Below, one piece after another: positions 4,301-64,000 of a stretch of DNA of 64,000 nt (the first letter of the stretch is position 1; each line of letters starts with the position of its first letter). Source of the stretch: Asterella californica. Its lineage: Eukaryota; Streptophyta; Marchantiopsida; Marchantiales; Aytoniaceae. Below the pieces are notes generated by a model. The model saw only the letters and a list, made by a program, of their open reading frames with translations. It did not search any database and was not told the DNA's origin. The stretch covers positions 11,346,001 to 11,410,000 of the forward strand of contig JAYKYS010000007.1 of the NCBI GenBank assembly GCA_036924285.1, given 5' to 3'. The translations under genes were made by a program, and so were the position numbers.

Positions 4301-4309
4301 GAGCTTGGT

Positions 4310-13725: not shown

Positions 13726-13789
13726 ATTATTACAAACAGCTCGTAAGATCATCTTCCTGCTAAGGAAGAAGTAACCTTAAGTAACAACG

Positions 13790-17398: not shown

Positions 17399-17770
17399 TC
17401 ATAAGAAGTCAGCAGACCACAACTCTACCTTTAGACGAGCAGATTGGTCAGATCTACTCGGTTCCAGTGTCCTTGAAGAGCCCTTTGCATGACTCTTCTG
17501 ACTCGATTCAATCCACCGCTTAGCTGGAAGAGACCACTGCGGACGCCGTCTCACAAAATATCTACGCAGTGGTTCTTGAAACTTGTACAATGCTAGATCA
17601 TCTAGGTACTCCCAAGCTTCACTTACCAATCCCGGAACTCTACCTGTCCAACGACATAGGTATTGAGTAATGGGTTCTCCAGCTCCATCTGGATTCGGTA
17701 ATGCTCGATGATCTACTATCTCAATCAACTCAAGATCATCAGCTCTTGGTAATGCTTCTAACACTGGATG
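17399..17770 (-). pseudogene. Gypsy chromodomain-like C-terminal tail
   Basis: This is the same reading frame as the integrase, separated from it only by the TGA at 17771-17773. It contains ITQYLCRWTGRVPGLVSEAW followed by EYLDDL, the pattern of the chromodomain that ends many gypsy integrases and steers insertion to marked chromatin. About 120 residues with a basic Arg-rich end. Because of the stop it would be lost from the polyprotein. Confidence 0.7.
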
Positions 17771-19746: not shown

Positions 19747-22295
19747 TTGCTCTTCTTGAGGTAGAGTTGATGTTCTTCTAGACGCTTAAACACCATTTCA
19801 ACATCTGCTAGATGCTGATTCCAAGTGGATGAGAAGATGATGATATCGTCTAAGTACACGATAACACTCTCATCCAAGAGATCTCTGAAGATCTCGTTCA
19901 TTAGCCTGCAGAAAGTACCAGGTGCATTGGACAATCCAAACGGCAACACTGTATACTCAAACAAGCCATACCTCGTCCTTATAGCCGTCTTTTCTTCATC
20001 TCCTTCTTTGATCCGGATTTGATGATATCCAGAACGAAGATCCAACTTGGTGAAGTACTTTCCTGTGGCCAACCAATCTGTGGTTTCATCCATGAGAGGA
20101 AAAGGATACTTGTTCTTGACAGTAACCTTATTAAGTGCACGGTGGTCTGCACACATGCGGATACCACCATCTTTCTTGGTCACGAACAAGACCGGTGCAG
20201 CATAAGGTGATATGTTGGGTCGTAAGATACCTTGAGCTATCAATTCTTTCAACTGAGTCTTCAGCTCTGTTAGCTCATCAAACGACATGCGTCTTGATGG
20301 CACTGCGATAGGTGTAGCCCCAGGAACCAGATCAATGACATGATCCAAGACTCTCCTCGGAGGAAGTCCTGTTGGTAACTGATCCGGCATTATATGAGAA
20401 TACCTCTCAATCAGCATTTGCATATCAGGATGTATGGGAAGAGCAGCAACACGTTCTTCCTCATCCGTCTTCACCTTGGGTTTAGACATCACTGTAACCC
20501 AAGCTTCGTCTACTGACTTGATCTGCTTTCCAAATTGTCTAGCTGTGTAGATCTGAAATGCCACCTTGGCTCGTTGGAACCTACGGACAGCATGGTTTGG
20601 CTCCTTAGGTCTCTCTTTGATGACCAATGGATGTGGTTGACCCGAGCCCCATCGATCCATGACTATGATGTTCCCTTCTTGAACATCTAGCTTTGCCTTG
20701 GTCTCTTGTAACCAAGACCAAGACAAGATACCCTCCATCGTGTCACCTAAGCTCATAACTAAAAACTCATGCTTCCTAGTTACCCCTCCAACAGTAATAG
20801 GAACACTCATGAGCTTTTCTGTAACGGTTGTGCTGCCTTGCACAAACCTTACCAACAACGGGCTCATGATCTTGGTTCTAGTCATCCCTAAGATCCTGAC
20901 CAGCTTTTCATCTAAGACATTCACATCTGCTCCAGTATCTAGAAGCAAACAACACCGGTGGTTTCCTATTTTTACTTCAATCCACGGTAGAAAATCTCCA
21001 TGTTCTACCAAATGCTCACCAGCACATACCTCTGCTTCAGTAGTTGCTTCAACTGGTTCTTCAACATTGGTTGTCTCTTCAGCTGTCAACCCACGAACGT
21101 TACTCGCTGTTGAACGTTGAGGACACTCACAAGCAATATGACCGTCTCGTCCGCATCGAAAGCAGATGATCGTCCTTGAAGGTGTAGCACTGCTAGCTCC
21201 ACTGCTCCTAGCACCTGAAGTCGAAGCTTGGTTGGATCCTGCATTGGATGCATAAGATCCAATAGGTCGGGTCTGAGTAGGACCACGAGTAACTCCTTGC
21301 TGTTGAGACCCACGAGGAAACCTCCTTCCCGCTGCACCAAATCTTCCACCACCACGTCCTCTACCACCTCTACTCTGAGAGGACGCTATCTGTCCTTGAG
21401 GATTGCGCCAAAATCCTCTACTGGGCTCGCCATCACTTGTTCCACGTTGAAACTTGGAGGGCTGCATGGTGTAGTTACGTTCCCTAGTGTTATCTGCTGC
21501 TTCCAGAAATGCAAACAAGTCTTGCATGTCCTCGGACTTATGAAACATAACCCAGCTATCAAACACACTAGCATAGAAACCTTGCAGACCTTTCTTCAAG
21601 TGAAACAGCAAGTCGGTGCGATCCACCATGTGCAAACGAGTAACCAACTCAGAAAATCGCTGGAGATACTGTCTGATACTCCCTGTCTGTCTCAGATGAA
21701 TAAGTTCTAGTCGAAATTGTGTAGCTTCATCCACTGGTACCAAATGTCGTCGGAGTTCATCCTTCAGCTCAGGCCAAGTGGACATAGGAGTTGTACCGTT
21801 CAAACTTCTCATCCGTTGTTGACCTCCATACCATTCCTTAGCCTCTCCTTCCAGTCTACTAACAGCATAGGTGAACCAACTGCGCTCATCGAAATTCTCC
21901 AGGTAATTCTCCATTTCAGTAATCCATAACTCAAACCTGGAAAAGCTTTTCTCACCGTTGAAGGCTGATGGTGTCGCTGGTTCAGCCCACTTCACTTTCC
22001 GCTTGTGCCCTTCTTTGGCTGAGCTGCCTTCTGCAACATTCTCTTGCACCTTCTGTGATCCATCTTCATTCTTATCTGCTTGAGCAATATCAACTGCTTC
22101 TTCGCCTGGTAGTGCTAAATCCTTGACTTGCTCGATTTGCAGTACAGGGACCTCCGCTTCCTTCTCTTGTGTCGCTTTTGCTTGAGTTAAATCCGCCTTA
22201 AGCACCTTGTTCTCAGCTTCTACTTGCTCAAGTCGGCCTTCCAACTTTCTCAGCAATGCTTTCATCTCGTCCAACTCGGTCGACACAGCCTCCAT
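19713..22295 (-). CDS. Gypsy Gag-protease-RT polyprotein
   Basis: 860 codons from ATG 22295, just inside the primer site. Order: heptad coiled coil (about 5-45), acidic linker, retrotransposon Gag capsid region (about 115-275, with ELWITEMENYLENF and EAKEWYGG), Arg/Gly-rich segment, CCHC knuckle CFRCGRDGHIACEC (about 377-390), aspartic protease LLLDTGADVNVLD (about 448-460), and RT with YPFPLMDETTDW, FTKLDLRSGYHQIRI, LPFGLSNAPGTF and the catalytic YLDD (about 813-816). The frame is lost by an indel in the RT thumb near 19.73 kb, after which RNase H continues in another frame. Gag and protease look intact. Confidence 0.92.
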   Translation of the reverse strand: MEAVSTELDEMKALLRKLEGRLEQVEAENKVLKADLTQAKATQEKEAEVPVLQIEQVKDLALPGEEAVDIAQADKNEDGSQKVQENVAEGSSAKEGHKRKVKWAEPATPSAFNGEKSFSRFELWITEMENYLENFDERSWFTYAVSRLEGEAKEWYGGQQRMRSLNGTTPMSTWPELKDELRRHLVPVDEATQFRLELIHLRQTGSIRQYLQRFSELVTRLHMVDRTDLLFHLKKGLQGFYASVFDSWVMFHKSEDMQDLFAFLEAADNTRERNYTMQPSKFQRGTSDGEPSRGFWRNPQGQIASSQSRGGRGRGGGRFGAAGRRFPRGSQQQGVTRGPTQTRPIGSYASNAGSNQASTSGARSSGASSATPSRTIICFRCGRDGHIACECPQRSTASNVRGLTAEETTNVEEPVEATTEAEVCAGEHLVEHGDFLPWIEVKIGNHRCCLLLDTGADVNVLDEKLVRILGMTRTKIMSPLLVRFVQGSTTVTEKLMSVPITVGGVTRKHEFLVMSLGDTMEGILSWSWLQETKAKLDVQEGNIIVMDRWGSGQPHPLVIKERPKEPNHAVRRFQRAKVAFQIYTARQFGKQIKSVDEAWVTVMSKPKVKTDEEERVAALPIHPDMQMLIERYSHIMPDQLPTGLPPRRVLDHVIDLVPGATPIAVPSRRMSFDELTELKTQLKELIAQGILRPNISPYAAPVLFVTKKDGGIRMCADHRALNKVTVKNKYPFPLMDETTDWLATGKYFTKLDLRSGYHQIRIKEGDEEKTAIRTRYGLFEYTVLPFGLSNAPGTFCRLMNEIFRDLLDESVIVYLDDIIIFSSTWNQHLADVEMVFKRLEEHQLYLKKSKCSFGQESVVF

Positions 22296-22331
22296 TGTCG
22301 ATGGTGTTTAGCAAAGACTCAACTTGAGCCT

Positions 22332-22343
22332 GCTCTGATACCA
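22332..22343 (-). promoter_or_regulatory. Primer-binding site (initiator Met tRNA)
   Basis: The minus strand reads TGGTATCAGAGC two bases inside the 5' LTR. This is complementary to the 3' end of initiator Met tRNA and is the usual primer site of plant gypsy and copia elements. Confidence 0.9.
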
Positions 22344-22345
22344 AC

Positions 22346-23288
22346 TGTAACGTTCGACCGCAGATCTCGAAACAGATTCCTTTATCTCTAACCAATGAAC
22401 TGCCGAACGTGAACCTCCTTGGAGACATGTATACTTTATTTGTGTCTCCAGATCCAGTTCGTTAAACTATCCGCTAATAAGCACAGAGGATTTAATAACT
22501 GTTGAACGGGTCTCGAATAACCAACTAGTCTTTTGTAGGTCTCGGGTCAATCTTAGGTTACTAAACACAGGTGGAACTATTCTAGACCTGGGTTGCCTAA
22601 AATTTGGGCAGCGCTTCCGCTATTGGTGATCAAGTCAGAACGCTAGGACCCACAAGGAGCAACCGCCAAGACTGAGAGACCTAGTGGATGCTAGGAAGTA
22701 GGAAGGCAAAGCAATTACACCGAAATAAAGTCAACACGACACCAGATGCGCCCAACTCAGTTTTGGCACACAACTCAAGCCTATTTATCAGAATGGAGGA
22801 ATTCACGGGCTCATATACATTACATGGCATTTACTTGCTGACAAGGTCACGCAGCGCTCTTAGACCGGTAATTCTTCACTACTCAGCAACTCCAGAACTA
22901 AGACTTCACCAGAGAACCTAATTTCACTCTGAACGCCCTGATTTCTGTTACTCAACAGATCAGACCCCAAGTCAGCGACCTAATCAACACCCCAAGTCTG
23001 CTCTCCAGATCTGCTCTCCAAGTCTACTCTCCAAGGAATCAGATTTGCATGCTCTTTGTTTTCTGAACTCCAAGATACAATCTTTCTATTCTGAAAATAC
23101 AGTCTTCTCTCCTCATCACCAAGAGTGCTCTTCTCCCAAAAACTGAAACTGAGAATGGCCCCTTTAGGGCTCGCGACACTCTTTTATCTAGTCTTCTTGA
23201 GCCTGCTTTATGACCATGCAGCTGCCACTTTTTGGTTAATCACTGCCCGAATGCCATCTGGTTTGGGGAAAAAGCAAAAGGTGTTACA
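22346..23288 (-). repeat. Gypsy 5' LTR (right)
   Basis: 943 bp, TGTAAC to GTTACA, with the primer site directly inside it. Its close match to the left LTR defines the element. Confidence 0.93.
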
Positions 23289-23525
23289 AAAGGAAGAGGT
23301 GAAGAGTGTACGCTTCCGTATTTACAGACAGAGTTATGGAAGAGCAGGACGGAATGGTATGAAACTCGTAAAAGAATTGGGTTAAATCCCAGTAAATTGC
23401 TAATGAATAGACCCATTGCTAATGCGTAGCTCCTCGTTGTCAACCTGCCAAACCTCATAGCGTATCTTCTGCTCGTAGTATTTGTGTGGTATGCGAGCTG
23501 CTGTCGTATATAAATGTGATGTACC
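23289..23525. other. Short spacer between two related LTRs
   Basis: 237 bp with no similarity to the gypsy interior that I can see. It separates the complete element from an older solo LTR of the same family, so the locus was hit at least twice. Confidence 0.6.
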
Positions 23526-24494
23526 TGTAACGTTCAACCGCAGAACTCAAAATAGATTCTTTAATCTCTAACCAATGAACTGCCGAACGTGAACCTCCCT
23601 GGAGACCTGTATACTTTATTTGTGTCTCCAGATCCAGTTCGTTAAACTATCAGCTAATGAGCACAGAGGATTTAATATCTATTGAACGGGTTTCGACTAA
23701 CCAACTAGTTTTTTGTAAGTCTTTGATCAATCTTAGGTTACTAAACACAGGTGGAACTATTCTAGACCTGGGTTGCATAAAATTTGGGCAGCGCTTCCGC
23801 TATTGGTGATCAAGTCGGAACGCCAGGACTCACAAGGAGCAACCGTCAAGACTAGGAGACCTAGTAGATGCTAGGAAGTAGGAAGGCAAAGTAATTACAC
23901 CGAAATAAAGTCAACACAACACCAGATGCGTCCAACTCAGTTTTGACACACTTATCAGAATGGAGAAATCACGGGCTCATATACATTACATGGCGTTTAC
24001 TTGCTGACAAGGTCACGCAACGCTCTTGGACCGGCAATTCTTCACTACTCAACAACTCTGCTGTGAGAAATTAACTCCAGAACTAAGACTTCACCAGAGA
24101 ACCTACTTTCACTCTAAACGCCATGATTTCTGTTACTCAACAAATCAGATCCCAAGTCAGCGATCTAATCAACACCCTATCATTCTTGTTGATCATAAGT
24201 CTGCTCTCCAGGTATGCTCTCCAAGTCTACTCTCCAAGAAATCTGATTTGCATTCAATTCTAACTCTCTGATTTCTGAACTCCAAGATACAATCTCTCTA
24301 TCCTGAAAATAGAGTCTCCTCTCCTCACCACCAAGAGTGCTCTTCTCCAAAAACTGAAAGCAGATAATGGCTCATTTAGGGTTCGCGACTCTCTTTATCT
24401 GGTCTCCTTGAGTCTGCCTTGTGACCTTGTAGCTGCCACCTTTTTGATAATCACTGCCCGAATGACATCTGGTTGGAAAGCAAAAGGTGTTACA
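23526..24494 (-). mobile_element. Diverged solo LTR of the same gypsy family
   Basis: It begins TGTAACGTTCAACCGCAGAA and ends GGTGTTACA, and aligns throughout with the two LTRs of the neighbouring element. It carries many more substitutions and small insertions (for example near 24056-24075). No interior is attached. Orientation follows the complete element. The flanks (GTACC left, TACAG right) give no clear duplication. Confidence 0.85.
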
Positions 24495-33355: not shown

Positions 33356-33539
33356 TAAAGCATATACCTCACACTACTTCTCAGTTTCAGTTTCACGAGA
33401 TCAGAACAGTCTGCCGTACATAATCTGTTGTTTAACGAGAAAGATTCTAGACGAGCATAATTCCACTAAATTATCACCAATTCCGGATAGGCACGTTCTC
33501 GCATTACTTGACGACTACATGCTACAATTCTACTTCGAC

Positions 33540-34845
33540 ATTTGAGTTTAGTAGTTCTAGAAGTTAGCTCAATATTATTTCTAGTCTTTTATGTATATGT
33601 TTGACACTTTTGCATATGGTGTTATATATTTTGAGTCCTAGTAGGTTGATAGTATCTTATTTATCTTCTTCAAGCACTCGTACGCTTGTGCAAGAGATTT
33701 CATATTTATCTATGTTGTTCAAAGTACATAACTTTAAGTCTATCATGTGGATAGAGTTTAAGCTCATGGGTTGTGCTTACATGTCGTCCATGCATGCTTT
33801 CTAGCTTGTTTAAGTTATCTTTTAAAGTTACATATCACTTTATATGTCTTCGTAGGAAATTTAAGATTTACGCTGGCAGTTTAGAGGTTTGACATGTAAC
33901 TTATGTATGAAGTTAAGTTTTCACGTGGATTGGGAGCACAAAAGGACATGGAAGTGGAGCTATGAACTCCCATTGGTCCATTTTTATCTTTTATGAAACT
34001 CTAAACTTGGAAGCAAGAGATCTTAGGAGAAGTTAGAGCTTTTGGTAAAGGAATTCAGAAAATCTGGAAACACAGAGTAAGAGAGCTCGTCGTGCCAGTC
34101 ACTATCAGTGCAAATTGCGATCGATTTGGAGCAATAAAGAAGGAGTTATGCCAAATTGAAGTTCGGATTGAGCTAGAATTGCATCATAATTATTGATCTG
34201 AAGTTTTTGGTGTCAATTGCAGCAGAATAGAGATAATTGCTTCAAACCTTCGTGGTTGCATTCACTGTCAACATGGCTACTTTATCAAAAAAGTTTCATG
34301 TCATTTGAGTGAGTGAGCAATTCAGGACGATCGCTGAAGCAGAGGGGGTCTGAAAAGCTTTCAATCTAGAGCAGCAACTTCAGAGCTCGAGATCTGGAGA
34401 ACCGTGTACAACCAGCAGGTCAAACTTCACGTGCTGTAGACTCCAAATCTTGTAAGAATAAGTGAAAGTTATTGAGCCAATTTTCTATTCTAGGTCGAAG
34501 TAGCTATCTAGATGTCAGAGATTGTCATAATTTCTTTACTCAAAACGTTTTTGCTCATATCTCAGTGCTCAGATTTGATCTCAGGCTAAAAGTTCGTATG
34601 TGTGTTCAGTAGAGCCTCCTTTACATTTAAGAGAAGTTTTGAAGTCAAAACCATCATATATTTTTTATTCTTGAGTGTTAAAGTTCACCATCTGATTTTA
34701 TTACTACTAGTTAGTCCTGATTTTTGCTTTCTGAACATATTAGAGGACCCAACAGACCTGTGTAAGTGTTTAGTGCCATGTTATAACCTGAAGCCTACCT
34801 CTTGAATAAAAAACCACAGTCAAAAGCCCAGCGCTTTCCTAGGTA
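33540..34845 (+). mobile_element. LTR of a second gypsy family (LTR-B), copy 1
   Basis: It aligns with the reverse complement of 55.74-54.58 kb and of 63.97-62.90 kb. Shared words include AAGCAGAGGGGGTC, GAGCAATAAAGAAGGAGTTA and GAGGTAGGCTTCAGGT (reverse complement). In this orientation the LTR is followed at once by a gag-like frame at 34.94 kb, so it is a 5' LTR. Boundaries are set by where the three copies stop matching. Confidence 0.7.
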
Positions 34846-34939
34846 GACTTATCACACTCCGACATACTTCTTTTTGATGACCTCGACTCGAAACACCTAG
34901 GGTGGAAGTTGTCTTGAGAGTGTTACTAGATCAGAGATC

Positions 34940-48204: not shown

Positions 48205-49605
48205 TTAGAGAAAAGATGATCTTAAGGAGTTTTTGTAAAGGAGAAGCCGACTTCTTCGGAAGACGGACATTTTCCGAGAAGACGTCTTCTCGATCATGTC
48301 TTCCAGAAGACAGAAGACGGTGATCGCGACTGCATGGATACCAACCCCTCGCCACATAGACAAGGGGTAGGTGTACCTATCAGGTAGCCACCGCAGTAGT
48401 AGGTAATTTGGGATAACCGAAGACACTAACTTAAAACGCATAGAAGATACGGAGCGAGGCGCATTCGCGTGAAACCGGTCGACTGCTTCTCGCACTGAGA
48501 GTGGACTGCGTCTTAGAAGTCAATTACAATCGGGGTACCGAAGTATGTTGTGGAAGCAAGGAGAGTGAAATTGGGAACTCATAGGAACGAATTGGTGCAA
48601 GAGAGAAAGCGAGGTCAACTATACTAGCTAGAACCACATGGAGCTGAAGGAATCGTTGGGGCGCAGCTCAAGATTGACAACATAAGTAGGATCATGGTGT
48701 CACATCAAATGTGGAATTGAAGGTTGGAAGTGCGTGGAAGACTGACGGTGCAACAGAAGCAGCCAGAAGTAGCACTGAGGTTCTTCCCATGTTCTTTTTC
48801 TTTTCTCACCGCTTCTCATCTCTGATTTGATGTCCCTCGCGCTTCCCTGCTCGTTTGCAGGAAACCGATTGATCGATTTCTCTACCCTGAAGTTCCTTCT
48901 GCGAAATTTGGGCGCAGATGCGCTGTCCAATTTTCGATAGCCATCTTCCGACTTCTTCCCAAAGTTGGAATCGAGCTTCCTCATCTCTCATTCTTATATT
49001 TGATCATCTGACTATCAATTTTCCTACCCTACCACACCTTTGTTCCCGAATCCATGGACGGAAGACGCTTCTAAAGATGTGAACATCTTCGGAAGACGAC
49101 TGTTTGCAATTCGTATCAAGATTGGATTTGATTGAGTTTTGTGTTGAGAGAAGCTTGGTACGAATCTTGAGTGAGTTGGTGAGTTGATTGTTGTTTCGAG
49201 AAGCTGGAAACTGGGAACCAGGCCTGTGCCTCCCAATCTTTCAGTCTTCTCAAATCCACATCTTCCTAGATAGACTAGAAGGTTGGAAAGGCTGGCAGAA
49301 TGCGCGAGAAGACGTGAGGGTTCTTTATGGATCTCTTCTGTCCGACCCATAGCAACCTATTCCTTCTTCTTCCCGAACTTAGAAGAGAGTTGTGAGAAGC
49401 CTTGCTGGCAGAATCTGGAGAGAATGGTCGAGGGTCATGTCTTCTCATCATGCAGCAAGCTTCTTCTGAGCGAGTATGAGAGGTAAGGAGTCGAAAGAAC
49501 AGAGTATGAACGTTCCGTGTTTGTTGAGAGGTTAGATTGTGTGTCGGAAGCCGAAGACAAGTGAGACTAGTGATGAAAAGCCTGGTTCCGTAAAGTCTTC
49601 CGATT
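48205..49605 (+). mobile_element. GAAGAC-rich element, copy 3 (5' part only)
   Basis: Similar to the reverse complement of 13.77-12.25 kb: it opens with GATGATCTTA, then a GACTTCTTCGGAAGACG cluster, and ends at TCTTCCG near 49603, where copy 2 continues with different sequence. The break adjoins the methyltransferase end of the gypsy element, so one element has interrupted or replaced the other. Frames at 48.2-49.9 kb are shadows of the repeat. Confidence 0.65.
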
Positions 49606-49649
49606 ACATCAGTTAATTGGAAATTGTCTCGGGAGTCTTCTTGGAGGTC

Positions 49650-49789
49650 ACTGTCCATCCGACGCTGCTCAGCCAATCCAAGGCTAACAATCCATGTCAA
49701 GCAGTTCAAGTCCCTTGCTTGATCCAACACTTGACGACGTGAAGCGTCCGACACCGAAGCTACTACCGTCGTGTCCGTAAGACAACCCA

Positions 49790-49852
<63 letters not shown>

Positions 49853-50671
49853 GGCATTGGACTCCACCAACTGTCGTAACCGAGCATCCCACACAAGCCC
49901 AGGTCCTCCATCTCTGTAAGCATGTGACGCTAGAAAGCTCACCAAAGTGGGTAACGCTGCCATAGGTCGTCTCACTAGGTTCACCACTGCCATGGGTGAC
50001 CTATCGACAACTCTCACTACTTGAGATCATCGTCTTGCATCCAAGATGCCATCAACTGTGAGGTGCGCTGGTCGTCTCACTACATCGTGTGCGCGCTTGA
50101 GCACCTCCCTCGATAACAAGTTTGTCCACCACAATCGTGGATGATGTGCACGAGATCCCACTCTCGCTGCATCTAACAACACTGCCAGTCCGATCCATGA
50201 CCGCCCTTGGTGCACACTCGTCATCATATGTGCGCGAGCATCACCCAACAAAGGAACGTTCTCCAAGATGTACGTTGGAGAATCCACTTGATGCATCTGG
50301 AGATGTCGTAAGATCCGTAACATCTCTCAGAACATACTAGATCGTGGGTCATGTAAACCTTGACATCTCTCAGCACGCGTATGACCTTGACATGACCACC
50401 TGGCTATCATCAAGTGAATGGTGCCAACAAACGTGAGATCCTGCGTCCCCAGCAGCAAAATATCTGACGGTAATGCTTGCCGGTATCCTCTAATAGCTGA
50501 TATAGACAACAACTCAGGATATCTCTGCACCAAACGTGCCACGTGACGCAATGAGACGCATCTTGCGATCTCATCTCTCTCCACATACAAGTATCGATGT
50601 ACTTGTATGCCTGCCTGCAATACCACAGCCAAACCTGTGCTGATCCCTCCAAACAACTCTAGCACACACAC
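49650..50671 (-). pseudogene. Retroelement-borne C5-cytosine DNA methyltransferase
   Basis: Motif I is VCVLELFGGISTGLAVVLQA, which binds S-adenosylmethionine, followed by the acidic YVERDEIARCV motif and ALPSDILLL. The catalytic loop reads WSCQGHTRAERCQG. The Cys is kept, but the usual PCQ Pro is Ser. YILENVP is motif VI, RLWWTN follows, and the C-terminal RRQVLDQARDLNCLTW matches motif X. TGA codons lie at 50327-50329 and 50027-50029, both where Arg (CGA) fits. A (CT)n tract has expanded inside the ERER segment and changed the frame. The layout looks closer to DNMT3/DRM-type than to DNMT1-type enzymes. It would methylate cytosine de novo, perhaps on the element's own cDNA; this copy is dead. 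Confidence 0.85.
49794..49849. repeat. (CT)n/(GA)n microsatellite inside methyltransferase coding
   Basis: About 56 bp of uninterrupted CT. On the minus strand it encodes Glu-Arg repeats at the place where methyltransferases have an ERERAMG-like motif, so it probably grew from a short GAGAGAGA coding run. Confidence 0.95.
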
Positions 50672-50689
50672 ACCCTCCTTTGGATAATG

Positions 50690-51763
50690 TCATGCAATGA
50701 GAGTCGTGTCCAACGGTGTTAAGGTCACAGGGTCAGTAACAGGAACACCCCGATGTTCCTCTACTGGCGGTACAAAGACTTCACTCCAAGCTTGCTGCAC
50801 CAACCGATCAGCATACTGCTGCAAATCTCCACTCGAACTCCAGAGTAGAACATCCAAGACAGATGATACTAACGTAGACATGTTAGGCATGTCCTCCACC
50901 TCCTCAAAGACTGGAGTATCCTCCGCATGGGCATTACCCTCTAACAACTCGTCAGGTCAAGTGATGACCGAACTGAACTCTGCAACGGATGCCATCGTCT
51001 CTGATGTAAGCTCCGTTGTCCCAACTCTAGCACTGAACCGCACTTGTAAGCTGTTCACTCGTCCCTCATCGGACTGTCAACCCGGTCTGTAAGATGCTGT
51101 CTCCGTCCAATAGTCGATCACAAACCCCATAGGATATAATACAACACCTCCAACCAATACATCATAAGACTCCGCGGCCGTAATGATAGCCTTGGCCCTC
51201 ACCATGGAGCCATCTATGGGATGATCTGGTCTAACTCTCACCGTCAGCAACTCGCGTGTCATGTGTAAAGTTGAACCTCCTGATCCCCCTAGAGATGTCT
51301 GTAGCTGGAATCGACATCTCTCCACTTCGGACTTCCTCAAATCGAAATCGATACACGTCGCCTTCTCCAACATCAACGGTTGGGCTCCAGAGTCTAACAA
51401 TACTTTCTGCGGTTGATACACCTTCCTTGAAGGTGCCACCAAACAGAAGATACCACTTCTGTTGTCCAACAACATCACACCTGGTGTCAATCCAGCACGG
51501 TCAATTGCCGGTCTAGCTGGTAACTCATCTAGCCTGGCAGTCGCCGCTTGCCAAGTACCACTAGTAGCTGTCCTGATCTTCGACTCCATGGACACATCTA
51601 CCACCTCTCGTTGAACCACCTCAGCGTTAGAAGTAACCACATCCTCGCTCTCACTGAGCGTGGCTGCCAACTGGAACACTAGAGCCAAGCTGACTCCCAA
51701 TGCCCTCATATCCGTGGCTGAAAATAGTGGGGCTCGCAAAACTATTGTAGCCGCCCCCAACAT
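50690..51763 (-). pseudogene. Gypsy aspartic protease and linker upstream of the methyltransferase
   Basis: Frame from 51763. An Ala/Glu-rich lead is followed by the protease centre VLLDSGAQPLML (DSG, about 51.39 kb) and further strands through YDVLVGGVVLYPMGFVIDYW, typical of retroviral-type aspartic proteases. After TGA codons at 51077 and 50957 the same frame continues with an acidic linker (EEVEDMPNMSTLVSSV, LQQYADRLVQQAW) to TGA 50690 and then straight into methyltransferase motif I. Confidence 0.75.
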
Positions 51764-52099
51764 GAGGTTCGACGTCGAGGGTTGACTCGCATGGATGTCG
51801 ATGTCTCCAACTCCCGTACACTATCGGTAGGTCGTTTAGGACCATAGAAGTGGTCCTCAATGCCTCCGATAGAGTGAACGACTGAGGAAGTCAGACATGT
51901 CTACCAACCTCCCCGTGTTGTGGATCCAACTCCACTGACGCACCTTGTGGCTCAGAGATACATACTGCACTCTGAGTCACTGCCGCAAATGTCTCAATCT
52001 GCGTCACACTAGCCATGAAGTCGAAGTCACCTCCTTCTCCTTCATAAGACGTGGAAGCTTCTATTCCATCATATCTCCGCTGAGCCATAGCCATACTAG

Positions 52100-53544
52100 C
52101 TATCCTCTACTCCAATTGCTCAATCCGAGCAGCCATATCTGCTTCTGACGTCATAGCAGGCAGTGGACCGACTGATCCTCTCTCAGGTGCTGGACCTCTA
52201 CCTCCAGCTCGACCACCACGGCCTCCATGAGCTCCTCCGCCTCGTCCACGATCAACCTTCTCTTGTCGTAACTTGGGATAGAGATCAAAACAACGGTCAC
52301 TATTGTGACCTGATCGTCCGCAATGCTCACACTGTCTAGACACTGCTTGAGACGTCCCATATGTCTCATAACTACCTCTCCTTTTGCTGATGAAGACCAT
52401 CACATGTCCAACAAGGACCTGCTTGCTGCTGACTAGAGAAGGACGGCATGGGCTTCTGCCCATCAGATCCTCCAGCACCTCCATGAGATCGTGAGTGTTC
52501 AGCACGATCCTTACTCCCACCACCACCACGCTGTTGCGCAGCCTATGATCCTCGAGAAGAGGAGGTCGTCTCATGTGATACGTCTCTGCTGAACCCAGCA
52601 GTCACCACCCTCTCCTCTACCATGTTGAGCTCTATCCACTCAGCCAAACCAAAGACAACCGCCAATGTCGGAGCGATGTCTCTAAGGAGAGTGGCATCTC
52701 TGACTCTCGTACGCAGCTCCTTGTCTAGTATCTCATACTAGAACTGGACTGCTTGTGCTTTAGTCACCCCTTGGGTAACATTGATTAATCGTCTCATGCG
52801 AGTAAACGTCTCACGTAGGCTCTCTCCAGTCCTCCACTGGAACTCATGCAAACTCTTCAACTTGTCGGTCCGCACACCCTGATAGTTCTTCCTCAAACAG
52901 TGGAAGAACTGAACCACAGGGTTAAACCCTGGTGGTATTCCGCTTGCACTACCACCTGCTCCACTACTAGTGGACGCATCGCTGGTAGTAGGTACTCCGT
53001 CACCTATGGATGTACCACTGCTATTGGCACCCGAACTAGTAGGTGCTACGCCTCCTGAAACTGCACCAGTAGTGATAGAAACGTAGTTGAGAGACCAATG
53101 TTGTCTCCACAACTCAATCTCAACACCATAGTCTCGCTTGAACTCGTGATAATCGTCCATCGACGGTCCCTCCAAGTGCTGAAACAAACCCTTCCACGCC
53201 ATGAAAGGTGTAAACAGTTGTGGGTTCCGCATCTGCTGCAGATTGTACCAACTCTCGAACTCTTGGATGAAGTCATCTAGTTCGATGATACCCACCGCAT
53301 CCGAGTAACGTCAAGGTCCCTTCGTGATCCCATAGATCTCGTCCATGTCCCACAACAACGATGTGGTGACACTAGACTCATCATCAGAAAATGCACTGTC
53401 TACGTCTAACTCGTCCTCTGGAACAACCAACGGCAATGGTGTAGATAGTCGGTACCTCACCCCACTCCGTGTATACCCACTGTCCGAGAAGTCCCCACCA
53501 GAACCTCTCGAGAACTTCGTGGTGATAGAATCTCGCGGACACAC
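52100..53544 (-). pseudogene. Gag of the methyltransferase gypsy element
   Basis: The frame from 53544 crosses a TGA at 53311 and continues to 52738. It shows EFESWYNLQQMRNPQLFTPF, a Ser/Thr/Gly-rich linker and SLHEFQWRTGESLRETFTRM, the pattern of retrotransposon Gag. After a frameshift, 52574-52107 holds the CCHC knuckle CEHCGRSGHNSDRC (about 52.29-52.33 kb) and a Gly/Arg-rich RNA-binding-like tail. Confidence 0.75.
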
Positions 53545-54574: not shown

Positions 54575-55745
54575 TGTGTTCAGTCTACTCATGAAAGCGT
54601 TGGGCTTCAAGCTATGGTTGCTTACTACAGAGGTAGGCTTCAGATCAAAAGGGAACACTATAAACACTCACTCAGGTCGAATGGACCCTCCAGTATGTTT
54701 AGGAAGCGAAAATCAAGTCAGACTAGCAATAATAAGGTCAGCCAGCGAACTTTAACAGTCCAGAATCAGAAACATACGATGATTCAGACTTCAGAACTTC
54801 TCCTACATGTAAATGAGGCCCTACTGACCATACATACGAAGTTTTAGCTTGAGATCAATTCAGAGCACCAAGATATGGACAGAAACGTTCTGAGCAGAGA
54901 AATTATGGCAATTTCTGATACCCAGACAGCTATTTCGACCTAGAACAAAGAATTGGCTCGGTCACTTTCGAAGATTCTTACAAGATTTGCAGTTCACAGC
55001 TTGCTGAACACTCCTGTGAAGTTGGACCTCCTGATTGTACACAGAACTCCAGATCTCCCTCTCTGAAGTTGCTGTTCTAGATTGAGAGCTTTTCGGACCC
55101 CCTCTGCTTCAGCGGTCGCCCCGAATTACTCACTCATTCAATTGACATGAAAATTTGAGGACAGTCGTAGCCCTGCTGACAATGAACGCGACCTCGAAGG
55201 TTTGAAGCGATTTCGCAAATCTACTACGATTGACACCGAAAACTCCAAAATCAACAAAAGTGCTGCAATTCTAGCACAAATCGAACTTCAATCAGCCATA
55301 ACTCCTTCTTTATTGCTCCAAATCGATCAAAAATTTCACTGACAGCGAGTGGCACGACGAGCTCTATCCTCCTGTGCTCTCAGATTTCGTAGTCTCCTCA
55401 CCAAATGCTCGAACCTCTCTTAAGACCTCTACTACTAAGTTTAGCGGTACACTAAAGATAAAAATGGACCAATGGGAGTTCATAGCTTCATTTCTCTGTC
55501 CTTTTGTGTCCCAAACCACGTGGTGACTTAATTTCATACATAGGCTACCACGTCAAGCCCCTAAAGTGCCAACGTAACCCCTAAACTACATGCGAAGGCA
55601 TGTAAAACGACGCGTAATCTCGAAAGATAACTCAAACACGCTAGAAAGCATGCAGGGGTGACAAGTAATTACAACCCATGAGCTTAACTCCATCTACATG
55701 GTAATCAACCTACTAAGACTCAAAATATATAACATCCTCCAGTGT
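54575..55745 (-). mobile_element. LTR-B, copy 2
   Basis: Reverse-complement match of 33.54-34.85 kb and direct match of 62.9-63.97 kb, including CCCCCTCTGCTTCAGCGGTC, TTTATTGCTCCAAATCGATC and AGGTTTGAAGCGATTT. A gypsy integrase C-terminus on the same strand ends about 140 bp before it, so this is a 3' LTR of a minus-strand element. Confidence 0.7.
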
Positions 55746-55883: not shown

Positions 55884-56950
55884 TCAGTCTTCCGATTGTT
55901 CTTCTTCATCGTCACTCTCCTCCGCCTCAGCCTCTTCAGTAGCCGAGTCGTCTTCGTCCCTTGGCATCCTCAGCTCAGACTTCATAAAGTTGAACAAATC
56001 TACTGACCCTCCACGTCGTTTGAACAACTTCACTCCTTTGCCAGCCAAAGATAGTTTCAAAGAAGTACCATCTAACTCAAGTAAACTATAAGTGGCATTC
56101 TCGTATACATCTAACACAACATAAGGCCCGAACCATCTTCGCGAGAACTTACGAAGTGTAGAATGCTGGTTCTCCAGCGTGCTATCATACACCAGAACCC
56201 AATCACCAACACGTATTGGCTTTGGTCATAGTCGGTGACTCTTGTCGAAACACTCTGTGTTTCTGACTCGAGCCACCTTCAGCTTCTCTTGCGCCTCAGC
56301 AAGATCCTCCTCCCTTCGCTCCAACTGCCTAGTTCCAAAGCAAGGAGTTAAGTATGATCTATACCATCTTCCCACGGTAGCGTAGCCCACGTAGGAAAGT
56401 CCTTCTCAGCAGGCATGATTGGCTTCTGTCCCAACATAAGCTCAACTGGCATATACCCAATCGTGGTATAGTGTGTAGTTCTATCAGCCCGTAAAGCAAA
56501 TGGAAGTAGTCTCGGCCATTCTCTAGGCCTACCATCACATGCTTTTACTAAAGCGTGAACAATAAAAGGGTGTCCTCGTTCACTCTTCCATAATTGGAGA
56601 GATCTTCTCGAGCCAACACCAAGTAACGCTATCGTGTCGGATTTTGCGTGAAGGATGTCCAAGAAAACGCGAGGTTCCTGGCTGTGGAGATGCTGTGTGA
56701 TGAGAGAGAGACAAGACAGAGAAAAGCAACCACGAAAATGAATGCTACGATATATATCAACTCCAAATGTATGTACACTGCCGGTTCTTTCTCCTAAGAG
56801 CACAGAACTGAAAAACAGACATGAACAGTATGTAACCTGCTTCAAAGTCCTTAAAAACAACCCCTGATTCTCAACCCTGACCCAAAAACACCGAAGCATA
56901 GCTCAAAGCAAGAGAAACTTCCCTTTGTTAACAAGCAGAGCCACAGCAGT
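55884..56950 (-). pseudogene. Gypsy integrase C-terminal half
   Basis: 56348-56899 contains HPFIVHALVKACDGRPREWP and TTHYTTIGYMPVELMLGQKP (end of the core domain), preceded by unrelated residues. After a gap and stops, 55884-56192 has TLRKFSRRWFGPYVVLDVYE and YSLLELDGTSLK, the GPY-type C-terminal fold, then an acidic tail. The D,D,E core upstream is missing. It ends against LTR-B copy 2. Confidence 0.75.
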
Positions 56951-57621: not shown

Positions 57622-58980
57622 TATGGAGGACCAAGTCGTATCTTTCTCTGGTCAGAGAGTAGATGATGAGTCTCCAGATCTTGAGGGTGGAGATGGTGTA
57701 CCAGACCAGCGAGATATCCATGACGATGTGACTGTAATGGAGTATCTACGTACTGACATGGTGATAGACACAGTAAGTACCAAGGAGCGAGATCGTGTCT
57801 TTCAACGTAGGAAGAGATTTTGACGAGAAGGACGACATGTACTTCGAGTGTGAGATGATGAGAGAGGAACAAATAGTGCCACATCCATCTCAGATCGCAC
57901 AGTTAGTACGACATGCCCATGAAGAGTTGGGACATTTTGGAGTGAAGCGTGCGCATAGCTTACTCCAAGGACAGTATTGGTGGCGTGGTTTGCACGTCGA
58001 TGTGCAGCAGCTTGTCGCACGATGTGTGGTTTGTGATCGAGTACGAGCATCGTTTAATGCTCTTATTCTACAGTTACACCCCTTACCAGTTATGGGTTGG
58101 GTCACTGTTGGAGTTTGGATTTTGTGGGAGTCTTATCGCTGACCATACGTCATCACCGGTATGTGTTGGTGATGGTGGAGCACTTCTCCATTGTATTACT
58201 GGACAAGACGAGTGAAGAGACAGCGTATGCGTTCTTAGATCGAGTGCTGAGTCGTTTTGGAGCACCAGCTGAAGTGCTGACGGACCAAGGTACATAGTTC
58301 CTTGGTGAGTTTCAGACCTTGTGTGATCAAGCGTTTGATTGATCATCGGATTACATCTCAAGATCATGCTGAGGCGGATGGTTTGGCGGAGAGGGTAGTT
58401 CAGACGATGAAGAGAGGATTGCGCAAGTATGACTTGCAGAAGGTGCACTTGGGAGATTGGGATGTGTAGTTATCATGGTTGGCTATGGGCTATCGTTTTA
58501 GCCGACAAGCGTCTTTGACTTCCTTCTCACCGTATTTTTTATTGTATGGCCAAGATCCATATCTACCTTCAGACATTCGTCGTGATTCTGCTGAGGTGCT
58601 GAACCTTGATGACCCTGATATGTGAGTGAACGCATGTTCTCAACGAGCAGAGACATTTCGGAGAGTTATGCCTATAACTTTTGAGAACCTAGCGATTGCT
58701 CAGCATAGAGACACGTTGCGATATGCAACTATTCGAGGAGGAGGTTATCGACCATCGATTTGCAGGTTTCATCCTGGTGATTATATCTATCTATAGCAGA
58801 CTGCACCGATGACATTGGAGGTGACCGCAAGATGCCTATTTTACGAGTGCGTGAGGTGTTACCTTCTAGAGTACTCATGTTAGAGTGCCGTGATGGTGTT
58901 GTTTGGAAGGACCATGTGCGTAATTGCATGTCATGACATCTTCCCAAGATCGATGATACAGTTGACTCAAGCTTAACAGT
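57622..58980 (+). pseudogene. Gypsy integrase fragment
   Basis: The zinc-binding part is clear: HAHEELGHFGVKRAHSLLQG followed by QYWWRGLH and ARCVVCDRV (H2C2). The core follows in shifting frames: LDFVGVLSLT near 58.11 kb, APAEVLTDQGT with a TAG after it (58296-58298), DHAEADGLAERVVQTMKRGL near 58.37 kb and SFSPYFLLYGQDPYLP near 58.53 kb. Frameshifts and stops show decay. It leads directly into a PHD-type zinc finger. Confidence 0.8.
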
Positions 58981-58998
58981 TGTACGGGCGGGCTTGAG

Positions 58999-59132
58999 GT
59001 GTATGTTATGTGGGTCTGCTGGTGGAGCAGCTCGTATGTTGGGATGTGATGCTTGTATTGACAATGTCATGTTTGACTCCACCTCTCAATGTTGTTCCTA
59101 CTGGACAGTGAGTTTGTCCTCGATGTATATAG
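58999..59132 (+). pseudogene. PHD-type zinc finger at the end of a gypsy integrase
   Basis: CMLCGSAGGAARMLGCDAC in one frame and, after a one-base shift, CLTPPLNVVPTGQ, TGA, VCPRCI and TAG in the next. Together they give the Cys spacing and the PPLxxVPxGxW-xCPxC ending typical of PHD fingers, with TGA replacing the conserved Trp. PHD fingers read histone tails, so an integrase tail like this could target insertion. This copy is broken. Confidence 0.7.
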
Positions 59133-59289
59133 CAGGGATAACCGATTAGATCTTTGCGTGGTATGGATTGCTTACATGCGACTAATGATGTGATGATGTA
59201 GCATCCGGTCTCCTAATTCTTTGCACCCATGAAGGTGTATATCAAGTAGTTGGGATATAGAGCTATCTGAAGTTAGAAGGACTTAACTG

Positions 59290-59936
59290 TCAGTTAGGGG
59301 GCGATTGTGATACACTTGTGTATGTGTATGTCATCGTCCATGTGTTATGTGTATGTTCTGGTGTACCTCTAACAGCGATGTATGTTGTGTAGCAATGTGT
59401 ATGCGTACGACACTCCTCCTCAAGATCACCGTTGAGGAAGGCGTTCTTGAAATCCATTTGATGCATCTTCCAACCTTTTTGAATTGCAACTGCAACTGCG
59501 GTTCGAATAGTCACCATCTTCGCAACTAGAGTAAAGGTCTCATCAAAATCCACTCCATGTTGCTGTGCATAGCCCTTGGCTACCAATCTGATCTTGTACT
59601 GAGACACGGTATCATCTGAGTTGCGCTTGACCTTGAAGACCCACTTGCAACCAATCGCTTTCTTACCTTCATGTAAGTCCACCAACTCCCAAGTCTGTTG
59701 GTGATGAAGCGCAGCAAGTTCAGCTTTCATACACTTACCCATTGAGCTTTGTGCATCGCCTCCTCAAGTGAATTCGGTTCTTGTTCGTGAAAAACATTGG
59801 TCATATATGCATGGTGTGCAATAAGAAAGCCTTCATGCATATACCTACTCACAGGAAGTTTTGCCTGTTCAGATCTGCAAGAGATAATCAGTGCACTAGT
59901 CAACTCTCCTTGCAACTGATCTGACGTAGACGTCAA
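59290..59936 (-). pseudogene. Copia reverse transcriptase, N-terminal part
   Basis: 59936-59727 gives EPNSLEEAMHKAQW. 59742-59290, in another frame, gives MKAELAALHHQQTWELVDLH, AIGCKWVFKVKRN, RLVAKGYAQQHGVDFDETF and MHQMDFKNAFLNGDLEEE. These are the opening blocks of copia RT. The YVDD active site is lost because the frame ends in unrelated CACA-rich sequence. Confidence 0.85.
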
Positions 59937-60104
59937 GGTCTAGGACAAAGTATCCAATGGATGTGGAAGATCCAAAATATCTAGATGAGTCAAACATATG
60001 CTGCAATAGCACGCGCTCACCATGTGTAAAAACTACACTTGTTACACTACGCTGTGTTACGTTGACTTTAGCGTTAACAACAGCTCTATGTGCAATTGAT
60101 TCTG

Positions 60105-61035
60105 ATATGAAATCAGACTTGGTTACAAGTCTGCCCAAATTCGAATCTAGTGGGCCCATTGAAGTTTGTGCAGCATATCAGTCCGGCAAGCAAGCTAGAC
60201 AACCCTTTAAGGGATCAGATAGCAGAGCGAACAATCTTCTGGAGCTTGTTCACATTGATGCATGGATTGCTTCTCAGCCAAGTATGACCGGTATCTAGTA
60301 CTTTGTGTCGTTCATTGATGATCATTCGCATTATACTTAGATATATTTGTTAAAAAACAAGTCCTCTGCCGAAGTATTATCAACATTCTAGACTTTCTGC
60401 AAGTTGATGGAAAAACAGTCTGGAGCATCTATCGTCTGTCTGAGATATGATGAAGGAGACAAGTTCCTTTCTGGAGAGTTTGATGTATATCTACGTGAGC
60501 ATGACATTAGACGCCAGAAGACCTACAGTTGCAATCCGCAGCAGAACAAGGTTGCGGAGTGCAAGAATCAACACATAGCAGAAGTTGCTCGTGTGATGTT
60601 GAATGAGAAAATCATGCTTAGACCTTACTGGGTAGAAGCTGTTTCATGTGTGATGTATTTGATGAACCGTACGCCTATTGTGGTAGTCCACAGTCAGACA
60701 TCGGTGGAGGTCTTCACATGTAGTAAGTCTGATTATTCGTTTCTTAAAGTTTTTGGATGTATCTGTTATGTGCACATACTTGATAAGAGACATAAGAAAC
60801 AGATCCGAAAGCAAATAGATGTGTTTTCCTTGGATATGTTCTTGATACGAAAGAATATAGATGTTCCAATCCTTCGTCCAAGCAGTTCTATACCAGTAGA
60901 GATGTTGTTTTTGATGAGCTACAGTCTTGGTTTGCTCTTGCACCTGTCCTAGCTATCCCTGTACTTACTGTACAACCAAGGAGTCAGTCCACTGTAGTAC
61001 CTCAGAATAGTACGTTGAGTGGAGGATCTGGAGAA
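60105..61035 (+). pseudogene. Copia integrase in inverted orientation
   Basis: Starts with LPKFESSGPIEVCAAYQSGK then NNLLELVHIDAW (first Asp), YFVSFIDDHSHYT, and YDEGDKFLSGEFDVYLREHD. It continues with TYSCNPQQNKVAECKNQHIA (catalytic Glu region) and VSCVMYLMNRTP. A frameshifted tail RDVVFDELQSWFA runs to 61.03 kb. Stops occur near 60298 and 60339. It lies on the plus strand while the copia protease and RT on either side are on the minus strand. Confidence 0.8.
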
Positions 61036-61037
61036 GG

Positions 61038-61493
61038 AAGGCTTTTCAACCTCTGAAAGTTCATGTGGTCAATTCGCTTGTGTCAGATGTCAATATCAGA
61101 CACTATTGGATCACTCTGTCCATACATGACAGCTTGTAACTTAGGCTCAGAGACATCTAGTTTAAATAGCCTATCACTCTTGCTACCTCGAGCTATGACA
61201 ATGCTATTCAAATCTTCAATAAAGAATCCATCTTTAGTGAAGTGCACTTGCAGATCCTTCTTTATCAACTGTCTTACAGATAGCATGTTTCTAGTCAATG
61301 TGGATACATGCAAGACATTCAGTACACCAGTAAACGTTGAAGCAAGAATGTCAAGCAGAATTTTATCCTTGTGTTGGATCTTGTGCTTGGTGTCATCTCC
61401 TGTCATCATAAACTGAGGAGTCTCCACATGCTCGAGTGAACTGGACCATTCTCGATGAGATGTCATGTGACTGGTGGCGTCGGAGTCAATCAC
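61038..61493 (-). pseudogene. Copia protease and pre-integrase region
   Basis: IDSDATSHMT stands where copia proteases have DSGAT, so the catalytic-loop Gly is replaced. MTGDDTKHKI, STLTRNMLSVRQLIKKDLQV and FFIEDLNSIVIARG follow. After TGA 61083-61085, in place of Trp, HKRIDHMNFQRLKSL completes the pre-integrase motif. The integrase itself is inverted next door. Confidence 0.8.
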
Positions 61494-61599
61494 TCAGTCA
61501 GGCTATGGCTCGAAAGCTGCATAACTCTGATGTGTTGTAATCAGCAACTGCTCTGAATAGACTTGCTCATTGACTGCATAGCCTTGTTGGTTACTGTTA

Positions 61600-62155
61600 C
61601 CTTGCTGGGGGTTGTTGTCGTTTTGTCTTTGATTGTTCTATCGCTTGTAGCGCTGATTCGCATTGTGGCCTTGCTTCTTGCAGTAGTTGCAAGAATCAGA
61701 CGCACGTCTCTAGCTGTTGGAAGAACCAGACTGTTGCTGGTTCTTCTGATTCTGCTGCTGTTCCGTCCGGGACCCCGTCCACGTCCAGCATCTTTGCCAC
61801 GACCCTTATCTCAAAATCCTCCAGAACCTGCAAAATAGACACTTTTTTGCTGACCCATTGAAGTAGAACTCCGCAATATGCACACCTCCTCTCCTAACAT
61901 AATAGGAACAAGTTCATCAAATCGTGAAAAGAGTTCTCTGGTCAAAATTGATGTTATGAATTATTTGTACTCTGCATGCAGTCCTTGCAATGTGATCCCG
62001 ATCAATACAACTCGACTTTGACAAAAGATAACGGATCTGCGAGCTGCTTGACATGGTTCACGTAGTTGTTGATACACATCGACCCCTTCTTCACAATACT
62101 GAACTACTGCAGCAATTGCAGCTTCCGCGTCTCTGTTCATGATTAAAACGGACAC
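61600..62155 (-). pseudogene. Copia Gag remnant with a degenerate CCHC knuckle
   Basis: The minus strand at 61650-61702 reads CNYCKKQGHNANQRYKR, a zinc knuckle lacking its last Cys. 62155-61961 holds a helical Gag-like piece (AAIAAVVQYCEEGVDVYQQL). Frames are broken. It lies in the expected place upstream of the copia protease. Confidence 0.5.
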
Positions 62156-62299
62156 GCGAGTGCATCTTAAGCTTTCTAAGACGTATCACAGTCATGAATG
62201 TGTCCGATCGTTGATTCTGAAACTGTCAGCGAAATATAGTGAATCGTCTAGTACGATCGCTTCTTTCACTCCTTTAATTTCAGGTCAAAATTCAAGGAG

Positions 62300-62890
62300 T
62301 GGAAGAAGAAGATGCATGCCACCCTAGCACTATCTCCTCATCAACCTCGTCATGCCATCGAACCCCAGTCTGATCTTGCTGATTCGTGCATGAGTTACGA
62401 TTCAACCCATCGGCATCTAGGTTTGCAACTTCAAGTCTATGTACTACTTGGAAGTCATAGTCCTGTAAGATAAGAGCCCATCATGCAAGCTTTCCTGTAA
62501 GCTTGTCGGACTCCATCAACCACTTGAGTGACTGGTGATCAGTGATGAGAGTAAAGGGGTTCCCAAACAGATAACATCGGAAGTGTGCAACAGCCCACAT
62601 TGCAGCTAAACACTCCCCCTCGTACGAACTGTACCTCGCCTCCATCGAATTGTTGGAGCGACTAACATACGCCACCACAAACTCCTTTTTCTCATCATCA
62701 TACTGAGTTAGCATTGCTCCAAGTCTCAACATACTCCAATCAGTGTGCAGTTAGAAAGGACGCCCTCTAACGGGTCTCCTCAAGATGAGAGCAGATGTCA
62801 ACCTATCCTTGAGCTTTACAAAAGCTCACTCTTGCTCATCTTCCCACTGTCACTCTTGGTCCACCTTCATCAGCTCTGGTAAAAGAGAGC
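62300..62890 (-). pseudogene. Gypsy RNase H fragment
   Basis: AFVKLKDRLTSALIL and LHTDWS lead into 62732-62481 with GAMLTQYDDEKKEFVVAYVS, ARYSSYEGECLAAMWAVAHF and TLITDHQSLKWLMES, the gypsy RNase H motifs. A TGA follows KLTGKLA, where Trp is usual (RW), and AxxLQDYDFQV-like residues continue past it. RT is absent; LTR-B copy 3 cuts in at about 62.9 kb. Confidence 0.8.
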
Positions 62891-62894
62891 CCAC

Positions 62895-63967
62895 TGAGTA
62901 CATACACGAAGTTTCAGCTTGAGATCAAATTCTAGCACCGAGATACGGGCAGAAAAGTTCTGATCAAAGATATTGCGGCAATTTTTGGTACTCAGAGAGC
63001 TATTTTGACTTACAACAGAAAATTGGCTCAATCACTTTCGAAGATTCTTACAGGATTTGGTGTCTACAAGATGATGAACATCCCTGTGAAGTTAGGACTC
63101 CTAATTGTACATAGTTCTCCAGATATCGTTCTCTGAAGTTGCTGCTCTAGATTGAGAGCTTTTCATACCCCCTCTGCTTCATCGGTCTCCCTGAATTACT
63201 CACTCACTCAAATGACTTGAAACTTTTTGGACAGTCATAGCCCTCCTGACACTGAACGCAACCACGAAGGTTTGAAGCGATTTCCCCAATTCTGCTGCAA
63301 ATGACACTGAAAACCCCAAATCCAACAAAAGTGACGCAGTTTCAACTCAATCCGAACTTCAATTGGGCATAACTCCTTCTTTATTGCTCCAAATCGATCA
63401 AGAATTTCACTGACAGTGCTTGGCACGATGAGCTCTCTCTTCATGTGTTCTCAGATTTTGCAGTCCCCTCACCAAATGCTCGAACTCTCCTTTAGACCTC
63501 TGTTTCTAAATTTAGAGTTTTACAAAAAACAAAAATAGACCAATAGGAGTTCATAGCTCCACTTGGTTTTCCTTTTGTGCCTTAAACCATGTGGTAACGT
63601 AATTCCACTCATAGGCTACCAAGTCAAGTTCCTTAAAGTGTCAACGTAAATCTTAAACTACCTAAAACGACACGCAGCCCTGAAAGTAAACTTAAACCAG
63701 TTAAAGAGCGTGCATGGGCAACACGTAAGTACAACCCATGAGCTTAAACCCTATCAACATGGTAAATCTAAGTTATGTACATTGAATATCATAGACAAGT
63801 AAGAAATCACTTGCACAAGCGCACAAATGCTTGAACAAGATAACTAGCATACTGTCAACCTACTATGACTCAAAAAAGTGTTAACACCGTATGCAAAGGT
63901 GTCAAACATATACATAAATGACTAGAAGTAATATGAGCTAATTTCTAGAACTACTAAACTCAAGTGT
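62895..63967 (-). mobile_element. LTR-B, copy 3
   Basis: Aligns with 54.8-55.74 kb directly and with 33.54-34.6 kb as reverse complement, including ACTCACTCACTCAAATGACT and TTTATTGCTCCAAATCGATC. Its outer end near 63967 (TTGAGTTTAG on the minus strand) matches the outer end at 33.54 kb. The inner end is truncated against the RNase H fragment. Any attached interior would lie beyond the right edge of the window. Confidence 0.7.
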
Positions 63968-64000
63968 TGGAGTAGAAATGTAATATGTAACCGCCAAGTA

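Follow-up and report, generated by a model that had tools for sequence, protein, structure and literature searches.

Gag, protease and methyltransferase in the window

The window, as we call the whole stretch of 64,000 nucleotides analysed here, carries on its minus strand (53346-49644) a dead Ty3/gypsy copy in which gag, protease, a linker and a DNMT3-type C5-methyltransferase follow one another consecutively (Table 1). The preliminary description had proposed that protease and methyltransferase share one minus-strand frame broken only by TGA codons, and this was confirmed: VLLDSGAQ, ELFGG (motif I), SCQG, ENV and the AHHPRLWWTN block lie in a single frame from about 51796 to 49850, interrupted by five TGAs. 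Besides those in the linker, two fall within the methyltransferase (50327-50329 and 50027-50029) and another just ahead of the domain (50690-50692). The element had been placed at 49650-51763; this interval holds the protease and the methyltransferase, but gag lies outside it (53346-51843). Motif X, a label that we presume for the conserved tail, had been assigned to the shared frame, but was found in a separate frame (-3; 49793-49644), past a GA tract that shifts the frame and ends the protease-methyltransferase frame. At 49655 an unrelated repeat starts and cuts the element off.

Table 1. Features of the methyltransferase element and of related pieces in the window
Feature	Positions	Strand	Evidence or remark
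Gag, N-terminal part; frame -2, in-frame stops inside	52378-53346	-	tblastn: P0025 58%, P0026 56%, P0042 43%
Gag, C-terminal part, with zinc knuckle CEHCGRSGHNSDRC; shift to frame -3	51843-52331	-	tblastn: P0025 49%; knuckle seen in sequence
Aspartic protease region, VLLDSGAQ; frame -1	51101-51490	-	Alignment to relatives
Linker, protease to methyltransferase; TGA at 51077-51079 and 50957-50959	50723-51100	-	Alignment
DNMT3-type C5-methyltransferase, motifs I to VIII and beyond	49850-50689	-	DNMT3A match 2.9e-7; alignments
GA microsatellite, 56 bases (28 copies of a 2-base unit)	49794-49849	-	Expanded at codons reading ERERAM in relatives
Conserved tail with presumed motif X; frame -3; EASRRQVLGQAMDLNCLTWIVSL in relatives	49644-49793	-	tblastn: P0025 74%
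Unrelated repeat truncating the element	48777-49655	-	Self-BLAST; inverted copy at 12199-13113, 75%
RNase H piece, stops inside; separate remnant or rearranged	62298-62825	-	76% to Marchantia P0031; 65% to L001 ORF2 residues 352-527
Integrase zinc finger, integrase core and PHD finger piece; frameshifted	57674-59126	+	68-74% to Sphagnum P0042

Pfam assigned no family, at E up to 1, to the protease piece or to either methyltransferase piece of the window. Weak Pfam protease matches were obtained for P0044, P0047, P0052, P0081, P0087 and L001 (a complete element described below). Recognition of the window domains came via their relatives. Identity to six relatives was highest in the methyltransferase (64-73%), followed by the protease region (52-65%, in the case of P0024 over just 49 of 130 columns), the linker (39-50%) and the stretch preceding the protease (35-46%). 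P0044 was more distant, with 31% in the protease region and 13% in the linker. The methyltransferase is therefore the best preserved part in the window alignments, pointing, at the protein level only, to a function that the family has retained.

Relatives have Trp at four of the five TGA sites (18/18, 15/18, 17/18 and 17/19 rows with a residue) and Tyr, His, Arg, Asn or Ser at the remaining one (16 rows). A changed genetic code, with TGA read as Trp, was ruled out: TGG is kept at 9 of 13 conserved Trp codons of the window copy, and 3 of 4 other window ORFs checked terminate in TGA. The TGAs thus represent decay. Together with the gag frameshifts, the frameshift at the GA tract and a Pro-to-Ser change in the catalytic loop (SCQ in the window, PCQ in the liverwort relatives), they argue that the window copy is nonfunctional. 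The CpG ratio gave no depletion signal of past methylation (0.71 in gag-PR-DNMT versus 0.75 for the whole window). TpG was high in gag-PR-DNMT (1.49 versus 1.15 for the window).

Self-BLAST of the window identified no LTRs assignable to the methyltransferase copy. It found repeats at 54575-55734, 62879-64000 and 33505-34856, which are probably those of a different gypsy element. The first two were not assigned to the copy as LTRs, being preceded by an integrase C-terminus (55884-56902) that looks different from the L001 family and had no match with it.

Of the gypsy order, the window retains gag, PR and DNMT in sequence, with RNase H and integrase present as displaced pieces only (Table 1). 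The integrase piece is 45% identical to L001 ORF2 residues 605-1030, PHD finger included, and matches Integrase_H2C2 at 5.4e-15. The RNase H piece stops near residue 1139 of P0031 and the integrase piece begins at residue 1135 of the same protein, consistent with an inversion of 57674-62300; alternatively, there may be two truncated copies. No RT of the methyltransferase family was found within the window; the one located near 20 kb matched at 30-39% and is part of another gypsy.

The window holds several other elements. At 16173-23289 there is a different, apparently young gypsy. Its 947-base end repeats share 98.5% identity and enclose an integrase frame and an open frame of 864 residues; a third copy of the repeat lies at 23525-24494. 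A Replitron HUH endonuclease domain (PF21859, 1.3e-13) is located at 13785-14642 (+), and Copia-type fragments at 59290-59763 (-) and 60392-60952 (+), with matches to RVT_2 (2.2e-29) and a retroviral SH3-like domain (7.4e-07). A large inverted repeat is formed by 1478-4794 and 7967-10401, in pieces of 70-87% identity.

Identity and conservation of the methyltransferase

With TGA read as Trp, the window methyltransferase alone matched human DNMT3A at 2.9e-7 in a single-sequence PDB search. A family profile made from the domains of seven relatives, with the window left out, returned DNMT3C/A/B first (1.6e-21 to about 1e-17), ahead of HaeIII (4e-8), 4onj, which we take to be a DRM (5.6e-8), and DRM2 chains (3.1e-6). 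No DNMT1 was among the 57 matches listed in this search. On the results of this profile search, a bacterial origin was rejected. The NCBIfam C5-methyltransferase model matched the domains of all seven relatives (best 3.6e-13), under its cut-off score, which was displayed for the first member only.

A structure model of the relative P0030 had a mean pLDDT of 57.9 overall, with the methyltransferase blocks mostly at 78-95. In a fold search with this model, DNMT3 entries accounted for all 50 listed PDB matches (the best 50 of 971), with a best listed TM score by target of 0.81. The P0030 methyltransferase is thus predicted to have the DNMT3 fold. The preliminary description would have been refuted by similarity to bacterial methyltransferases only; in the sequence and fold matches, similarity is to DNMT3 first. 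In the window and its relatives, motifs I, IV, VI and VIII occur in linear order, without the rearrangement of the DRM type, indicating that the enzyme is not a DRM.

The catalytic Cys is present in 63 of the 64 rows with a residue at this position, and the Glu of ENV in all 65. The residue before the catalytic Cys, where normal C5-methyltransferases keep Pro, is Pro in 35, Glu in 28 and Ser in 1 of 64 rows of relatives; the Glu-for-Pro swap was counted over rows P0024-P0089. The swap places the activity of the Glu-type relatives in doubt and suggests, at the level of sequence, that activity may have been lost in part of the family.

Relatives, their two layouts and the stop before RT

Three protein searches for relatives yielded 22 matches among 27 candidates, 21 among 7991 scored and 46 among 2879. 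Named hosts were Calypogeia fissa, Marchantia polymorpha, Sphagnum fallax and Closterium sp. NIES-53 and NIES-54. No relatives were found in the viral contigs searched, and a search of genome contigs gave a relative in 1 of 117 candidate stretches. Of the 21 matches among the 7991 scored proteins, 16 gave one BLASTP alignment piece with the window (44-59% identity) that ran through the protease and the whole or the greater part of the methyltransferase. Together with the DNMT3A match of the window domain, these alignments put the finding well outside what chance would give. The order protease then methyltransferase was observed in 31 of 66 relatives, including those from Calypogeia, Marchantia, Sphagnum and Closterium. 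The protease-methyltransferase junction noted in the window therefore recurs in other gypsy copies.

Two of the 66 relatives begin at the methyltransferase and continue into RT. In the other 33, the methyltransferase lies between RNase H and integrase, or starts the protein and continues into integrase. We thus distinguish layout A (gag-PR-DNMT followed by RT-RH-IN-PHD), to which the window belongs, and layout B (RT-RH-DNMT-IN-PHD). Gag, PR, RT, RNase H and a DDE integrase (rve core found in relatives) are in gypsy order in the relatives and L001. A PHD finger after integrase is often present in layout B proteins; in layout A it was seen in Marchantia P0041 and L001.

The two layouts were separated both in a methyltransferase tree (99/98; 60 family rows, after 7 of 67 rows shorter than 200 residues had been dropped) and in an RT-RNase H tree (95/85), which comprised 27 rows after removal of sequences whose RT match was no longer than about 130 residues. 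In the methyltransferase tree a 16-row group (98/88) contains the window together with Calypogeia, Marchantia, P0028 and P0030, and the window methyltransferase is 72% identical to that of Calypogeia over 278 columns. The preliminary description had pointed to charophyte elements; the nearest named relatives in this tree are liverworts. The tree lacks a sure root (DNMT3A branch 3.5), and P0044 and P0045, both of layout A, adjoin layout B at 87/77. Layout A is therefore one side of a branch and not a proven clade. The split fits one capture of the methyltransferase followed by one move; alternatively, two sister lineages may each have made a capture.

The sole complete layout A DNA seen was L001 (CADCWO010000201.1, 9285 bases). 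It is filed in a cyanobacterial genome bin, yet is plainly a eukaryotic-type gypsy element, and probably represents contamination from a eukaryote. Its ends join by 127 identical bases, as expected of an LTR element with one collapsed LTR. Reading across the contig ends, ORF1 encodes gag-PR-DNMT (1346 residues) and stops at UAG-CAAUCA, beyond which the same frame is open through RT-RH-IN-PHD (ORF2). This stop matches the type I readthrough motif, the consensus of which is quoted as UAG-CAR-YYA in a passage of PMC3542737. A stable RNA fold downstream of the stop had a z of -4.43 (0 of 200 shuffles). Note that the control for this fold was modest, with the site ranking second or fourth lowest of 109 windows in the coding region, whose RNA is structured in general (mean z -1.3). 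A further caveat is that L001 has two occurrences of the 9-base motif, one of them on the opposite strand, versus 0.36 expected.

Among 16 C-terminal tails examined, 13 stop between methyltransferase and RT, although several of these come from gene models flagged as partial or may have been cut by the end of a contig; P0029 and P0035 continue, and P0034 ends early. The methyltransferase is joined to RT in P0045, P0087 and the gene models P0029, P0031, P0035, P0039, P0042 and P0043. In P0045, DNMT-RT-RH reads as a single protein, so the stop is not universal. The gene models that join the two domains may be spliced, whereas P0045 is probably unspliced, as one ORF. In all of these proteins and in L001, RT follows the enzyme, the order that the preliminary description had anticipated. 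Its placement of the enzyme inside a pol frame fits those layout A proteins in which the methyltransferase is joined to RT, but is not quite right for layout A in the one DNA read, L001, where the stop separates the enzyme from RT and leaves it on the gag-protease side. With an in-frame stop at this position, as seen in one DNA, the layout A enzyme would be made together with Gag.

Possible role of the enzyme and comparison with known elements

Gag, protease and methyltransferase are consecutive in the window and lie within single proteins in relatives; from this arrangement we infer the role of the enzyme in the element. Our preferred reading, which we consider fairly probable, is that the locus is a dead gypsy copy whose gag-protease polyprotein included a DNMT3-type enzyme, and that working relatives would likely methylate their own new DNA copies. 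The layout A enzyme would be produced at the level of Gag, enter the particle and be released by the protease. Once freed, it would methylate double-stranded cDNA before or at integration, such that new copies would arrive already methylated, and the integrase would be guided by its PHD finger in the choice of insertion site. A more elaborate history is possible, and we put it forward tentatively: a streptophyte gypsy lineage may have taken up DNMT3 early and later moved it across the gag/pol expression boundary. In layout A, a UAG-CARYYA readthrough stop would then have the enzyme made along with Gag and protease, for packaging in bulk and methylation of cDNA, with a PHD reader on the integrase choosing the target. 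If true, a single mobile element would combine a writer and a reader of chromatin marks, and would do so in algae, mosses and liverworts alike.

Alternatively, the element could be no more than a bryophyte version of the published KnitGypsy-Dnmt3 elements, carrying its enzyme in Pol, in which case the placement would be irrelevant. The shared ingredients speak for this, namely gypsy domains plus DNMT3, without introns and with purifying selection reported in passages of PMC5890265, as do the several gene models that fuse methyltransferase and RT, and P0045, probably as one ORF. We nevertheless regard it as doubtful, considering the stop in L001, the 13 of 16 tails that end before RT and the separation of layouts A and B in both trees. 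Passages of the same paper raise action on the host as possible: the methyltransferase might alter methylation of host genes or of the silencing machinery to keep the element expressed, or slow the element and spare the host. Fusion of the enzyme to gag and protease favours action in or near the particle instead, and a host-directed role appears unlikely.

In some members of the family the domain might have lost methylation and now serve in structure or binding; the 28 of 64 rows with Glu instead of Pro ahead of the catalytic Cys, and the Ser of the window, would be compatible with this. However, the Cys, ENV and other motifs are conserved in the same rows, and liverwort rows that keep the motif have Pro, making such a module quite improbable. 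The possibility that a host DNMT3 gene or retrocopy landed beside gypsy debris by chance might be entertained for a broken copy in a window full of nested repeats. It is ruled out, to the point of being negligible, by the shared order in 31 of 66 relatives and the single alignment pieces spanning the junction in 16 of 21.

The closest known system is found in Klebsormidium nitens, where passages of PMC5890265 (2018) describe DNMT3 in the Pol ORF of gypsy elements (KnitGypsy-Dnmt3), along with DIRS-like repeats. According to these passages, gypsy- or DIRS-borne DNMT3 methylates CG de novo in yeast, and the role of the element-borne enzyme was left open. Passages of PMC12344493 repeat the K. nitens finding and name Copia and DIRS. 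The main text of PMC5890265 contains no mention of PHD, liverwort or moss, and the passages of PMC6453930 and PMC5784723 contain none of element-borne DNMT3. Our literature search, which covered the text of openly available journal papers, recovered no recognisable report for bryophytes, of the PHD finger or of gag-side placement. To the extent of this search, gypsy elements with DNMT3 are known from K. nitens, and the bryophyte hosts, the gag-side placement and the PHD finger are new.

K. nitens proteins were absent from the named matches of our three protein searches, and the comparison with KnitGypsy-Dnmt3 is by published description. Both combine gypsy-type domains with a DNMT3 that lacks introns and lies within the coding part of the element. 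In contrast to the Pol-ORF enzyme of KnitGypsy-Dnmt3, the layout A enzyme is on the gag-protease side, and the present family occurs in liverworts, Sphagnum and Closterium and has a PHD finger after integrase. Layout B and some layout A proteins fit the Pol-ORF placement, whereas L001 does not. SymbioDIRS-Dnmt3 of Symbiodinium, described in passages of PMC5890265, likewise has DNMT3 in a retrotransposon polyprotein, but is of the DIRS class with a tyrosine recombinase, while the present relatives carry a DDE integrase core. With host DNMT3 and DRM enzymes the family shares the DNMT3 catalytic domain and, as in DNMT3, the linear motif order; it differs by its fusion to gag and protease and is not rearranged as DRM is. 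Chromoviruses are gypsy elements with a chromodomain. The present family resembles them in having a chromatin-reader-like domain at the integrase end, which is a PHD finger in place of the chromodomain.

DNA methylation is the tool by which hosts silence such elements, and an element that keeps a de novo methyltransferase of its own is therefore a paradox. Predictions on the time and place of its action follow from the gag-side position of the enzyme and from the PHD finger. Since Marchantia polymorpha, for which good genetics is available, belongs to the bryophyte branch, the question is testable. Passages of PMC5784723 list five DNA methyltransferases for Marchantia (MET, CMTa, CMTb, DRMa and DRMb), with no mention of DNMT3; element-borne DNMT3 domains would thus be an unlisted source of enzyme in this plant.
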